Shown here: positions 59,076 to 64,000 of the stretch, piece by piece
Layout: the number at the start of each line of letters is the position of its first letter
Position numbering within the stretch: the first letter of the stretch is position 1
Assembly (NCBI GenBank): GCA_020723805.1
Contig: DYID01000007.1
Location: 62,001 to 126,000 of the forward strand
Source of the DNA: Anaerolinea sp.
GTDB lineage: Bacteria > Chloroflexota > Anaerolineae > Anaerolineales > Villigracilaceae
Reading direction: 5' to 3'
DNA length: 64,000 nucleotides
Notes under the pieces: model-generated
What the model was told of the DNA's origin: nothing
The model's input: only the letters and a program-made list of their open reading frames with translations
Database searches by the model: none
Position numbers and translations under genes: made by a program

Positions 59076-60356
59076 ATGCAAAATCCGCCCCAGCCCCTTT
59101 CTGAAAACTGGGCTGTCCGCTTCTTCACTATCTGGACGGGACAAGCCTTCTCGCTCTTTGGTTCGGCGCTCGTGCAATTTGCCCTGGTCTGGTGGCTGAC
59201 GCGGGAAACGGGCTCCGCCACCGTGCTGGCAACCGCGACTTTGGCGGCGCTCTTACCGCAAATCGTTCTCGGTCCGTTTGTGGGCGCATTGGTTGACCGC
59301 TGGAACCGCCGCGTCATCATGATCGCGGCAGATACGTCCATTGCGCTCGCCACGCTCCTGTTGTTTTATCTCTTCGCCGCAGGGCAAATACAAACTTGGC
59401 ACGTCTTTGCGCTCATGGCAATCCGTTCTTTGGGAGGCACGTTTCATCACCCCGCCATGACCGCATCCACCTCCCTCATGGTCCCAGACAAGCACCTCGC
59501 CCGAGTCGCCGGCGCCAACCAGACCCTGCAAGGCTTGCTCAACATCTTCGCTCCGCCGCTGGGCGCACTGCTCATCGAAGTTATTTCCACCCAAAACGTC
59601 CTACTGATTGACGTGGGCACGGCTCTCCTCGCTATTCTGCCCCTGTTCTTCATCTCCATCCCGCAGCCCTCCCGCCACGCCCTGCAAGCCAGCGGCGCGA
59701 TTGCCCCCACCACCTACTTCCACGACCTGCGCGAAGGCTTTGCCTACGTCCTCCGCTGGAAGGGATTGCTGGGGCTCATCCTGCTCGCCATGCTGCTCAA
59801 CTTCATGCTCGTCCCCGCCTCCTCCCTGCTGCCGCTGGTCGTGACGAAGGTCTTCAACGGCGGCGCGGCAGAATTGGGCTGGGTGGAATCCGTCTTTGGC
59901 GTTGGCGTCATCGCGGGCGGAATCCTGCTCGGCATTTGGGGCGGGTTCAAGCGCCGCATTGTCACTTCTTTCACCGGTATCATCGGCATTGGCATGGGCG
60001 TTATCCTCACGGGTCTCACCCCTGCGACCATGTTTTACCTTTTGCTTGCCGCCCAATTTCTGCTGGGATTCATGCAGGTCTTTGCCAACGGACCTTTGAT
60101 GGCAATCATGCAGTCCACCGTCGCTTCCGACGTGCAGGGGCGCGTCTTTTCTCTGCTGGGGGCGGGCGCCACCGCCATGATGCCGCTCAGCCTGCTGATT
60201 GCGGGTCCCGTCTCGGACGTGCTGGGCATCCGCTTCTGGTACATCCTCGGTGGAACGGTTTGCATCCTGATGACGGTCGTATCCTTCTTCATCCCCGCTA
60301 TCATGGACATCGAGACGAACCATCAAACCATTGCCACTGTTACAGAAGCCGATTAA
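59076..60356 (+). CDS. MFS transporter (MefA/EntS-type efflux)
   Basis: A 426-residue major facilitator with 12 predicted helices. FTIWTGQAFSLFGSALVQFALVWWLT in helix 1 and GPFVGALVDRWNRRVIMIAAD (motif A, loop 2-3) are typical of the MefA macrolide-efflux/enterobactin-exporter group, as are GANQTLQGLLNIFAPPLGALL and the NGPLMAIMQSTVASDVQGRVFS block in loop 10. Substrate unknown; likely a drug or siderophore exporter. Its strong, AT-rich promoter sets it apart from neighbours. Confidence 0.85.
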   Translation: MQNPPQPLSENWAVRFFTIWTGQAFSLFGSALVQFALVWWLTRETGSATVLATATLAALLPQIVLGPFVGALVDRWNRRVIMIAADTSIALATLLLFYLFAAGQIQTWHVFALMAIRSLGGTFHHPAMTASTSLMVPDKHLARVAGANQTLQGLLNIFAPPLGALLIEVISTQNVLLIDVGTALLAILPLFFISIPQPSRHALQASGAIAPTTYFHDLREGFAYVLRWKGLLGLILLAMLLNFMLVPASSLLPLVVTKVFNGGAAELGWVESVFGVGVIAGGILLGIWGGFKRRIVTSFTGIIGIGMGVILTGLTPATMFYLLLAAQFLLGFMQVFANGPLMAIMQSTVASDVQGRVFSLLGAGATAMMPLSLLIAGPVSDVLGIRFWYILGGTVCILMTVVSFFIPAIMDIETNHQTIATVTEAD

Positions 60357-60543: not shown

Positions 60544-60579
60544 CAGGCAGTATCTGGTAGGCTTGATTTACGTCAGAAA
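60544..60579 (+). promoter_or_regulatory. Bipartite motif before the ECF sigma gene, copy 1 (candidate autoregulated promoter)
   Basis: CAGGCAGTATCTG, 14 bases, CGTCAGAAA. Both blocks recur exactly at the same spacing at 61240-61275. CGTC is the common -10 core of ECF promoters. It ends seven bases before the sigma ATG, so the transcript would be leaderless. Confidence 0.55.
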
Positions 60580-60581
60580 AG

Positions 60582-61124
60582 ATGAACAAACCAGTGACCG
60601 ATGAACAAAGCCTGCTGCAACGCGCCACGCAATTGGAAACCCAAGCCTTGGCGGAAATTTACGATGCCTACAGCCCGGGCATTTACCGTTATGCCATGCG
60701 CCTGCTCGGTGATGTGACGCTGGCGGAGGATTGCGTCGCCGAAACCTTTGCCCGCTTTCTCAAGTCCCTGCAGGAGCGGCGCGGTCCGCGCGAGAACCTT
60801 CAGGCGTTTCTCTACCGCATCGCCCACAATCTGATTGTGGATTCGTACCGGCGGCAGGAAAACACGTCAGCGTTGGACGATGCCCTTCGGAGCGAAGCAG
60901 ATGTCCCTGAGGAGGAAGCGGCGAAGCGTATCCGTCAGAAAGAGGTGCGCGAGGCAATCCGCCATCTGACGCCCGACCAACAGCAGGTCATCGCGCTCAA
61001 GTATCTGGAGGAATGGAACAACGAAGAGATTGCCAGGGCGTTGAAAAAGCCTGTCGGCGCGGTGAAGTCCATTCAACACCGCGCTTTGAGGAGCCTGTAT
61101 AGATTGTTGAAAGAAAAGGGTTAA
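60582..61124 (+). CDS. ECF-type RNA polymerase sigma factor
   Basis: A 180-residue sigma-70 family protein with region 2 (LAEIYDAYSPGIYRYAMRLLGD then LAEDCVAETFARFLKSL, LQAFLYRIAHNLIVDSYRR) and region 4 (LTPDQQQVIALKYLEEWNNEEIARALKKPVGAVKSIQHRALRSLYRLL, ending in the HTH recognition helix). A charged linker (EEEAAKRIRQKEVREA) separates them. No zinc-type anti-sigma follows; the next gene, one base after the stop, is a DUF5667 membrane protein likely to control it. The ATG has no clear Shine-Dalgarno. Confidence 0.92.
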   Translation: MNKPVTDEQSLLQRATQLETQALAEIYDAYSPGIYRYAMRLLGDVTLAEDCVAETFARFLKSLQERRGPRENLQAFLYRIAHNLIVDSYRRQENTSALDDALRSEADVPEEEAAKRIRQKEVREAIRHLTPDQQQVIALKYLEEWNNEEIARALKKPVGAVKSIQHRALRSLYRLLKEKG

Positions 61125-61125
61125 C

Positions 61126-62061
61126 ATGAAGAAACAAGATGAATTCGAGTCGTTCGTAAAGCCAAGGCTGGATGAACTCAAGCCTGTGCCGCCGCGCGAC
61201 GCACACATGGCTTCACGCGGGCGCAGCCGGTTTTTGAGCCAGGCAGTATCTGCGGCTTCGCTCCCGCGTCAGAAAGGGTGGAGTTTCAATTTCAGAAAGG
61301 AGCGATATGCTATGAACGTGTTACTCTCCATCCTTGTGATTGCCGGGCTGTTGTTCGGCGGAGGTGCGACGGTGGTCGGCGCAGCGCAGGACGATTTGCC
61401 GGGCGACCCGTTGTATGTTGTCAAGACTTTGAGCGAAGATGTCGGTCTGCAGTTTCAGTACGACGCGGAAGAAAAGGCTCTGCGGCTGATGGAACTGGCG
61501 CAGGTGCGCATCGAAGAAATGACGCGCCTCGCGGAGGAAGGGCAGCCCATCCCCGCTCAGGTGCAGCAGCGGCTCGAACTGCACATCCAGCAAGCGCTGC
61601 AACTGTGCGCCCAACTGGATGACCCTGCCATGGAACGCGCACTGTTGCAAATCCGCGAGCGGCTCCAATTGCAAGTTCAGGAAATGACTCAGTTGCAAGC
61701 GCAGGCGCAGCAGCAAGCCAACCCCAACGCGCCGCAACAACTGCAACTGATGACGCAGACACAAACCATGCTGCAACAGCGTTTGCAGGCAGTGGATGAG
61801 GGTCTGCAGAACCGCGAATTGTTCCGCGAGCAGGTGCAGAATGAGTTCCAGTATGGGCAGGATGAAGTCACGCCGCCCGCTCAGAACGGCAACGGAGAAC
61901 AAAACGGTCAGCCCAACCCCGATGCTGGCGGTCCGAACCCCGCACCCGGCGGACCGGGCGAGCCCAATCCGAACCCCACCCCCGACCCTATGCCCACACC
62001 AATGCCCAATCCAATGCCGGGCGGTAACGGGAACGGTTCCGGCGGAGGAAACAAGCCGTAA
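61126..62061 (+). CDS. DUF5667 membrane protein, putative anti-sigma partner
   Basis: A 311-residue protein. The cytoplasmic N-terminus (residues 1-58) has VKPRLDELKPVPPRD and SRGRSRFLSQA, as in DUF5667/anti-sigma-like proteins. One transmembrane helix (MNVLLSILVIAGLLFGGGATVVGA, about residues 63-84) is followed by the DUF5667 motif LPGDPLYVVKTLSEDVGLQF, Gln-rich coiled coil (about 110-235) and a Pro/Asn/Gly-rich tail. Met63 has its own AAAGGAG site nine bases ahead and a second copy of the bipartite promoter motif, so a shorter signal-peptide form may also be made. Confidence 0.82.
   Translation: MKKQDEFESFVKPRLDELKPVPPRDAHMASRGRSRFLSQAVSAASLPRQKGWSFNFRKERYAMNVLLSILVIAGLLFGGGATVVGAAQDDLPGDPLYVVKTLSEDVGLQFQYDAEEKALRLMELAQVRIEEMTRLAEEGQPIPAQVQQRLELHIQQALQLCAQLDDPAMERALLQIRERLQLQVQEMTQLQAQAQQQANPNAPQQLQLMTQTQTMLQQRLQAVDEGLQNRELFREQVQNEFQYGQDEVTPPAQNGNGEQNGQPNPDAGGPNPAPGGPGEPNPNPTPDPMPTPMPNPMPGGNGNGSGGGNKP
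61240..61275 (+). promoter_or_regulatory. Bipartite motif, copy 2, inside the DUF5667 gene
   Basis: CAGGCAGTATCTG and CGTCAGAAA at 14-base spacing, identical to copy 1. It lies 36 bases before the internal start at 61312, which has a strong AAAGGAG site. Confidence 0.5.
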
Positions 62062-62131
62062 TCCAACGTTCCTCACCCCCCCATCTAATCGTTCGATGAT
62101 TTAGCAGCGGATTTCACAGATTGACGCGAAC

Positions 62132-62165
62132 AAAAAGCCAGCCTCATGCAAGAGGTTGGCTTTTT
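62132..62165 (+). terminator. Intrinsic terminator of the sigma-DUF5667 operon
   Basis: AAAAAGCCAGCCTC / GAGGTTGGCTTTTT with a six-base loop (one G-U pair). Confidence 0.85.
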
Positions 62166-62196
62166 GTTTGGCTTGATTCAGAGTAACTTATTCACC

Positions 62197-62351: not shown

Positions 62352-63746
62352 TCAATCGTCATCGCCGCCTTCGCCTCCCTCGCCATCGGGGTTGTTGCTG
62401 TCGTGACAGGCGGTGCAGGTTGCAGAGCGCAAGTTTTGCGTGTGGCAATCGCGGCAGGACGCGCCGCCATGGTTGACACCGCTGCCGCCTTCGTCGGCAA
62501 TGACGGGGTGAGGTCCGTGATAGGGCGCGTACCAGTTGTTCGTGGTATGGCATTGCGCACAGTCGCTGCCGAACATGCCGGCATGGAACTGCGGATCGCT
62601 GTGACAACTCACGCACGCGGTGGACAGTCCCTTGAATTGCCCGCCGGTATGACAGCGTTCGCAAGACACGTTTACGTGCGCGCCGGTCAAGGGGAAGTTG
62701 CTGCGGCTGTGGTCGAAGGTGGCGTTCTCCCAATCCGTCGGGTTGTGGCAGGCGGCGCAGTCCGTGCCAAATTGACCGTTGTGTTCATCGTCCTGGCGGT
62801 GACAGGAATAACAGTCGGTGGGCGTGCCTTTGTACACGTTGTTCACATGGCACTGTTCACAGCGCACCTCAGCGTGCTTGCCTTCCAGTTTGAAGGCGGA
62901 GAGATTGTGGTCGAACGAGGCGGGTGTCCAGCCGTCCACCGAGTGACAGGCGGCGCAGTCCCGTCCGAAGCGTCCTTCATGCGGCTCGTCGGCGTAATGA
63001 CAGGCATAACAATCCTGAGGCGCGGCGGCAAAGTCTGCCAAACGGCGGGCATCCACATGGCATTTGACACAATCCACGCCAGCGTGTTTTCCATTCAACT
63101 TGAAAGGGAAGGAATTGTGATTGAACCCGCTCACCAGGCTGTCCACGCCGTCGTGGCAATCCAGGCACGACGAGCCGAACGCCAGGACGTGCGCCGTCAT
63201 AAAACCGAGGTCGGTTTGACGATGACAGGTATCGCAGGTTTGGGGATCGAACTTGGAGATGTCGCCGGCATGACAATCGGAACAAACGAACGCCTCGCGC
63301 GTGACCTTGAACTGGTGCCCTTTCAAGGAGAATCCCACCGCCTCATGCGGGAACGAGATACCGTTCAATTCCGTGAGGCTGGCGGTGGGACCGCGGTGTT
63401 CGGGGTGGCAAAAGCGGCAGCGCAGATCCGGCTGGTCGGTCAGGAGTGAACCGTGCAGGGTCGCCACGTCTTTCATCTGCACGGCAATATTCCCATGACA
63501 GTCCACACAGCGGTCCTCCATGCGGGCGGATTCCCACGGCGCGGTGTGACAGGCTTTGCAGTTTCCGCCCGTCTCGGCATGGGAAGTGACGCCGCCGAGC
63601 ATCTCTCCGCTTTGCGCGTTCAAGGGACCGGGGTTATACAGTACACCGCCCCGGGCGTAGGCATATCCGGCAATGACCAGGGCGGTGATCAGCGCCGCAA
63701 TCATGCCCAACCCAGACATACAGCCTAAACGACTTGTAGTTTGCAT
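62352..63746 (-). CDS. 17-heme c-type cytochrome
   Basis: A 464-residue exported multiheme protein. The start at 63746 follows GGGAGGG; a membrane anchor or signal (GMIAALITALVIAGYAYA) comes first. I count 17 CxxCH heme sites, from NCKACH to TCTACH, with many further His available as distal ligands. Middle and end show modular repeats of about 30-40 residues of the form (F/S)DH...F.L.GKHA.V.C..CHV, then a second CxxCH (for example CVKCHVD with CYACHY and CAACHS), as in cytochrome c7/c3-type and doubled-CXXCH proteins. It probably carries electrons outside the cytoplasmic membrane. A gene of the same type follows upstream on the strand. Confidence 0.93.
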   Translation of the reverse strand: MQTTSRLGCMSGLGMIAALITALVIAGYAYARGGVLYNPGPLNAQSGEMLGGVTSHAETGGNCKACHTAPWESARMEDRCVDCHGNIAVQMKDVATLHGSLLTDQPDLRCRFCHPEHRGPTASLTELNGISFPHEAVGFSLKGHQFKVTREAFVCSDCHAGDISKFDPQTCDTCHRQTDLGFMTAHVLAFGSSCLDCHDGVDSLVSGFNHNSFPFKLNGKHAGVDCVKCHVDARRLADFAAAPQDCYACHYADEPHEGRFGRDCAACHSVDGWTPASFDHNLSAFKLEGKHAEVRCEQCHVNNVYKGTPTDCYSCHRQDDEHNGQFGTDCAACHNPTDWENATFDHSRSNFPLTGAHVNVSCERCHTGGQFKGLSTACVSCHSDPQFHAGMFGSDCAQCHTTNNWYAPYHGPHPVIADEGGSGVNHGGASCRDCHTQNLRSATCTACHDSNNPDGEGGEGGDDD

Positions 63747-63789
63747 TTGTGCCCTCCCAGGCTGATTTGTAATTTGCAATTGCTGCAGG

Positions 63790-64000
63790 TTAGTTGCCCC
63801 AGCCCTTTGGCGAGTGACATGCCGCGCAATCGGTGCCTTTCTCGCCGTTGTGCTTATCCTGATGACAAGCCGCGCACTGGCTGGGTGTGCCTTTATATAC
63901 TCCGTTTTGATGACACTTCTTGCAGTCCACTTTGGCATGTTTCCCTTCGAGCGGGAAACCGGTCTGGTTATGGTTGAAGGAAGCGTTGCCCCATCCGTTG
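63790..64000 (-). CDS. Second multiheme c-type cytochrome, partial (C-terminus only)
   Basis: An open minus-strand frame from the window edge to a TAA, 69 residues, with three heme sites (CKKCH, CAACH, CAACH) in the same modular layout: FPLEGKHAKVDCKKCHQNG, YKGTPSQCAACH and KGTDCAACHSPKGWGN. It ends about 45 bases before the start of the 17-heme gene, so the two are probably co-transcribed. The rest lies right of the window. Confidence 0.88.
   Translation of the reverse strand, partial: NGWGNASFNHNQTGFPLEGKHAKVDCKKCHQNGVYKGTPSQCAACHQDKHNGEKGTDCAACHSPKGWGN

Follow-up and report, generated by a model that had tools for sequence, protein, structure and literature searches.

A conserved sequence pair before an ECF sigma gene and inside its DUF5667 partner gene is very probably a promoter pair of that sigma factor

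The window analysed here, a stretch of 64,000 nucleotides from Anaerolinea sp. (contig DYID01000007.1), carries an ECF sigma gene followed by the gene of a DUF5667 protein (Table 1). The sigma factor is small and comprises only region 2 (residues 26–93) and region 4 (residues 121–172) by Pfam, which fits the ECF (group IV) sigma factors. Its best NCBIfam model is TIGR02952 (BldN family), with 140.4 bits against a curated cut-off of 206.45, and its best sequence match in the PDB is 6dxo_A. The partner protein matches DUF5667 (PF18915) with 45.9 bits (gathering score 27) and is laid out as a presumed cytoplasmic segment of two helices, a linker of low model confidence, a membrane helix, the DUF5667 helices and a tail rich in Pro, Gly and Asn. 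The AlphaFold2 model of the partner (mean pLDDT 78) places helices at residues 3–18 and 26–44 and the membrane helix at residues 61–78, with pLDDT <50 at residues 45–57 and block means of at least 90 over residues 91–240. A fold search with this model returned nothing at E ≤ 0.001, the top rows being generic helical proteins, and a profile of the partner N-terminus gave no match in the PDB at E values up to 10, RsbN included.

A strong hairpin followed by a U run lies 3′ of the partner gene and is likely to be a terminator, although it is absent from a simple terminator scan whose own matches were at chance level. With a terminator at this place, a transcript starting at the second of the two sites described below would contain no more of the partner gene than its 3′ part and give one product. 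A simple consensus scan for sigma-70-like sites between positions 60300 and 62400 found none, with 1.0 expected by chance. Further downstream, a multihaem cytochrome c gene (62352–63938, reverse strand) is convergent with the partner gene.

Table 1 Features of the sigma/partner locus, in positions of the window.
Feature	Positions	Strand	Basis
Promoter 1 (candidate): GTATC (60550–60554), 16-base spacer, CGTC (60571–60574), precedes sigma gene	60550–60574	+	Core in 59/61 loci, spacer of 16 in 58/59
ECF sigma gene, 180 aa, BldN-like	60582–61124	+	Pfam Sigma70_r2 and r4_2
Full-length partner, 311 aa, DUF5667, presumed anti-sigma factor	61126–62061	+	PF18915
Promoter 2 (candidate), intragenic: GTATC (61246–61250), 16-base spacer, CGTC (61267–61270)	61246–61270	+	Core in 54/61 loci, spacer of 16 in 54/54
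Internal Shine-Dalgarno-like AAAGGAG	61296–61302	+	Ribosome site and ATG in 51/54 core-bearing loci
Predicted short form, 249 aa: membrane helix/signal peptide, DUF5667 domain and tail, lacking the N-terminal segment	61312–62061	+	Translation
Strong hairpin and U run 3′ of partner gene, likely terminator	62127–62170		RNA fold −30.8 kcal/mol, z −6.7

Two exact copies of CAGGCAGTATCTG-N14-CGTCAGAAA are present at this locus, at 60544–60579 and 61240–61275, identical at 22/22 bases and in the length of their 14-base gap, while their spacers are identical at 0/14 positions; the claim of the first-pass annotation that two exact copies share their spacing and differ in their spacer is therefore borne out. 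Allowing up to three mismatches adds no further match, either in the window (100 shuffles give 0) or in the rest of the assembly (3.69 Mb, 97.2% complete). Random occurrence across the genome, which that annotation had named as a result that would speak against its reading, was thus not seen, the shorter GTATC-N16-CGTCANA being found at four sites. Two bases separate the first copy from the sigma ATG (60582), and the second copy takes up codons 39–50 of the DUF5667 gene. Profiles over relatives retain a conserved core of GTATC (starting at 60550 and 61246), a 16-base spacer and CGTC (starting at 60571 and 61267), with a nearly invariant A two bases past CGTC, the remaining identical bases being less conserved or not conserved. 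The 22/22 identity therefore overstates what is presumably the functional motif.

Relatives of the sigma factor were drawn from 81 genomes and from genome contigs, and the sequence before the sigma gene and within the partner gene was read. Seventy-four loci were located (L005–L078), 66 of them distinct and 65 with a partner gene (L014, at a contig end, was left out). Removal of L032, L033, L034 and L077, in which sigma identity is ≤39% and none of which has the promoter pair, gave the 61 distinct loci counted here, the window included and L079–L114 left out. The core was scored as [AG]TA[TAC]C, 15 to 17 bases and CGTC, a class widened after the loci were inspected, and the second position was defined as 30–230 bases 3′ of the sigma stop codon. 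So scored, 59 loci have the core upstream of sigma, 54 have it at the second position and 53 have both, whereas the chance expectation for all 61 second-position windows together is 0.7–1.0 (estimated from antisense sequence and the remaining sense sequence); strict GTATC is found in 47 of the 54 second-position sites. The spacer is 16 bases long in all second-position sites and in all but one of those upstream. The commonest bases 3′ of CGTC are A, T and A at both sites, the first two at 61–86% and the last at 100% and 96%, and the second site lies within the DUF5667 gene in 53/54 loci. The group that carries this sigma/partner arrangement consists mostly of uncultured bacteria; among named strains, Leptolinea tardivitalis YMTK-2 (L059) carries both sites. 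The identity of 22/22 bases within 700 bp might by itself suggest a chance repeat or a recent duplication of a 36-bp stretch, but the spacers of the two copies have no position in common and the pair recurs in 53/61 loci with different spacers; we give this explanation practically no weight, and the relatives exclude it.

The second site codes for residues 41–49 of the partner (V-S-x5-R-Q), at the end of predicted helix 2 and the start of the linker. These residues are conserved and the reading frame is constant wherever the site is intragenic, as would be the case if the internal match were a protein motif, V-S-x5-R, and the DNA identity incidental. This explanation, which we regard as very improbable, is at odds with the codons used. 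When V-S-x5-R was sought at the amino-acid level, irrespective of the DNA motif and with V-P-x-R/E-D/N matches set aside, the Val codon at the internal site was GTA in 51/52 cases and the Arg codon CGT in 53/56, whereas control positions in the same genes vary (GTA in 6/35, 3/30 and 7/40 for Val; CGT in 7/47, 5/43 and 6/40 for Arg). With the N-terminal V-P-x-R/E-D/N matches kept in, the counts are 51/58 for GTA and 53/58 for CGT. The codon exceptions (the second match of L024, and the matches of L026 and L078) are matches elsewhere than at the site; in L066 and L068 the Val of the site is replaced by Ile, encoded by ATA. Codon choice thus supports the view that the internal site is selected as DNA and not merely as protein. 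The linker stretch seems rather free in sequence to serve as a promoter, since the site coincides in the model with the end of the helix at residues 26–44 and with the low-confidence stretch that follows it. Some 25 bases would then be dual-coding, read both as codons and as a promoter specific to the sigma factor.

In most loci a TGG codon lies 8 bases past the internal CGTC (61271–61282 in the window), so that [AGT]TGG falls near the predicted transcript start, and C before TGG is rare (7%). The TGG probably encodes a juxtamembrane Trp, and would in addition provide an out-of-frame leaderless start at that point.

The −35 elements of the two sites vary together in part. Where the upstream −35 is not GTATC (14 loci), the second site is non-GTATC in six and GTATC in eight; where it is GTATC (39 loci), the second site is non-GTATC in one. 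An A at the fourth −35 position occurs at both sites in five loci, upstream only in three, at the second site only in none and at neither in 45. The five A-type pairs carry Ser→Thr in the partner protein and all belong to one six-row clade, and the two loci with Val→Ile both have ATAAC upstream; these replacements accompany changes of the upstream −35 in every case, which counts against a protein motif. Ser→Pro matches an upstream change in L072 but not in L030. The agreement between the −35 elements is partial in the family of the window, with its clearest cases confined to one clade.

Fourteen other ECF/DUF5667 pairs, including a paralogue in the window genome, were tested for an exact shared motif (37 DUF5667 places are listed), and the motif pair was missing in 13 of them, the paralogue among these. 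The sole positive, L193 (G060), was the reason for choosing its family as a second family, of which 30 fetched loci were read (L193/L203, both G060:C12, and L205–L232). In this family, in which the sigma factor is ~30% identical and the N-terminal segment is different, GTAAC-N16-CGNN is found upstream in 26 loci, internally in 17 and at both positions in 16, with one or both sites absent in 14/30 and an antisense control expectation of 0.4; of the two upstream matches in L225, the gene-proximal one was used. The −10 tetramers (CGTC, CGTA, CGTT and CGAC) agree between the two sites in 16/16 pairs, a level of agreement reached by 0 of 20000 permutations that ignore relatedness. A ribosome site and ATG lie downstream in all 16 pairs, and an in-frame Met with a ribosome site in 15. 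Because the second family follows its −10 variants exactly and the codons at the site are nearly fixed, the protein-motif reading was rejected. The family offers a natural series of sigma-matched −10 variants that should be useful for learning ECF promoter specificity.

The first-pass annotation also held that the second copy precedes an internal AAAGGAG and ATG from which a form lacking the presumed cytoplasmic segment could be made, and the comparison supports this. In the window, AAAGGAG is followed first by an out-of-frame ATG (61307) and then by the in-frame one (61312). Immediately ahead of the membrane helix, an ATG with an AAGGAG-type site is present in 51 of the 54 loci with the core at the second position and in 0/7 of those without it (Fisher 3e-7, relatedness ignored); L069 and L074 have the second site but no internal ATG with a ribosome site. 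The juxtamembrane Lys before Glu or Asp is encoded by AAG in 49/51 cases, compared with 13/39 elsewhere in the same proteins, as counted at the amino-acid level irrespective of a ribosome site. Translation of the short form is a prediction, and the internal site might instead bind the sigma holoenzyme as a decoy, act as a roadblock or be the source of a non-coding RNA, with no protein made. We consider this very improbable given the close association of ribosome site and ATG with the promoter core and the selection on the AAG that encodes Lys within that ribosome site.

The start of the short form directly precedes a hydrophobic helix, and Ala-Ala-Gln was recognised by eye near the end of this helix in many loci. 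For the proposal that the helix is a signal peptide the signs are mixed: the hydrophobic helix and the small residues agree with it, but the first six residues have no net charge in 44/51 loci, which is unusual for a signal peptide, and either secretion or membrane anchoring would fit. Translation of the short form, with its product facing outward, is probable in our view.

The second site is missing in 7/61 loci. On the sigma tree (unrooted, with bootstrap not fully settled) its absence needs five changes, at least three of them forced by well supported branches, so that promoter and internal start seem to have been gained or lost together more than once. In four genomes without the internal site (G040, G041, G045 and G061) no stand-alone DUF5667 gene was seen, and their other DUF5667 matches adjoin other ECF genes. 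The one second site outside the partner coding sequence is that of L029 (G080:C3), which lies ahead of the whole partner gene, itself devoid of an internal start; the locus may represent a natural switch to driving the full-length partner. Two further arrangements were observed among the relatives, namely two adjoining sigma copies with a promoter match before each (L012, G016:C190) and, upstream of sigma, a gene with sigma region 4 only that also has a promoter match before it (L144, G005:C5).

We conclude that the repeat is very probably a promoter pair of the adjacent ECF sigma factor, associated with a truncated partner product. The first-pass annotation had proposed such a pair, one promoter autoregulatory and one intragenic for a truncated partner, and its proposal is supported by conservation, codon choice, the joint presence of promoter and start, the −10 agreement in the second family, the partial −35 agreement and the further targets described below. 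Promoter 1 would drive sigma and, by read-through, the full-length membrane partner. Active sigma would also start transcription at promoter 2, in the codons that separate the presumed cytoplasmic segment from the membrane helix, and the internal AAAGGAG and ATG would then give a truncated partner that consists of the membrane/export segment and the DUF5667 domain and lacks the part presumed to hold sigma off. A leaderless sigma mRNA, also proposed earlier, is plausible in the window, where CGTC lies 7 bases before the ATG, but the first in-frame start is at exactly this distance in only 17/59 loci and is 10–19 bases from CGTC in 37 of the remaining 42.

The full-length partner is likely to be an anti-sigma factor whose N-terminal helices bind sigma. 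The gene order, the 4-base overlap that is frequent between the called sigma and partner frames among relatives, and the analogy with anti-sigma factors of the RsbN kind (ASDIII) point this way. RsbN is described as blocking BldN and holding it at the membrane (PMC8103513), and class I anti-sigma domains are reported to lie near 72% of Chloroflexi ECFs (PMC7406223). The sigma-BldN/RsbN system of Streptomyces resembles the window in that an ECF sigma gene adjoins the gene of a membrane anti-sigma factor (presumed in the window), and 6dxo_A is the closest solved relative of the sigma factor, which nevertheless scores under the BldN-family cut-off. For Streptomyces venezuelae, a BldN-dependent promoter of rsbN itself is described, the position of which is not given in that passage (PMC4255298). 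The second promoter of the window differs from the RsbN arrangement in being intragenic in the partner, where it would bypass the N-terminal segment; only L029 of the 61 loci has it before the whole gene.

In ECF sigma/anti-sigma operons it is common, though not universal, for the sigma factor to switch on its own operon through a bipartite promoter whose −10 is of the CGTC type, to which the window would add a second promoter copy within the partner coding sequence and an internal translation start. Alternative-start isoforms made from intragenic promoters likewise give two proteins from one gene, one of them lacking the N-terminal part. The intragenic promoter of the window differs from these in belonging to a sigma factor whose presumed inhibitor is the protein truncated, and that of the second family also tracks the −10 of its sigma factor. 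An intragenic autoregulatory promoter combined with an internal start was not found in the literature searched, which was covered in part and included few subscription journals; the circuit topology proposed here, a variant of ECF autoregulation, was likewise not found described in that partial coverage. DUF5667 is not named in the literature searched, where DUF5666 is mentioned, and the present results may offer a first functional hint for both.

Exact matches to GTATC-N16-CGTCATA number 29 in 25 sigma-bearing genomes, compared with two for the reversed control; from a reading of their context, 18 are at sigma loci, four before DUF5666 genes and seven elsewhere. The DUF5666 protein, which is small and exported, occurs in 11 of the 25 sigma genomes, in five of them on the contig of sigma and in four of these divergent from it. 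By eye, 10 of the 11 DUF5666 genes (among L157, L159, L142, L150 and L164–L174) have the promoter core together with a ribosome site and a start that resembles a signal peptide, the eleventh, L173, showing only a partial resemblance. Exported DUF5666 proteins thus appear to be recurrent further targets of the same promoter. A search of the window genome for the DUF5666 protein gave no match. Beyond the pair itself, the two other GTATC-N16-CGTCANA sites of that genome are L129 (G000:C6:29936), a CGTCATA match 7 bases ahead of an ATG in a long frame that encodes a secreted S8 subtilase, and L130, in apparent coding sequence; a search of 30 relatives with residues 1–210 of the subtilase frame gave nothing at E ≤ 1e-20. 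The stricter CGTATC...CGTCWTA has 14 sites in 61 genomes and six in the control, seven of the 14 being at sigma loci and the other seven at control level.

As to its role, the short form may act as an exported effector that is co-produced with the DUF5666 protein in genomes that have one, with the full-length partner carrying the same ectodomain tethered to an anti-sigma segment; we put this at about even odds and favour it because the recurrent co-target, DUF5666, is a small exported protein without a regulatory part. The cell would then sense the state of its envelope with the same domain that it exports as a response. The same co-target speaks against a mainly regulatory role, in which the short form would compete with the full-length partner for a ligand, a protease or oligomer partners, as a decoy or dominant-negative form, and so feed back on sigma. 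We regard such a role, the main rival reading, as rather unlikely, although the short form is the same ectodomain minus the part presumed to bind sigma, and the motif recurs only twice beyond the pair in the window genome, so that feedback could be its main role there. A broader interpretation, which we consider roughly as probable as its converse, is a regulatory design shared by two divergent ECF/DUF5667 families of the order of the window. In this design the coding sequence of the anti-sigma factor would carry the promoter of its sigma factor between the inhibitor segment and the ectodomain; sigma activity would shift how much tethered inhibitor there is relative to free, exported ectodomain, and the sensor domain would double as the exported output. 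At one further place, L163 (G005:C31), a promoter match beside a DUF5666 gene points away from it and lies ahead of another gene, whose product looks like a TadG-type pilus protein.
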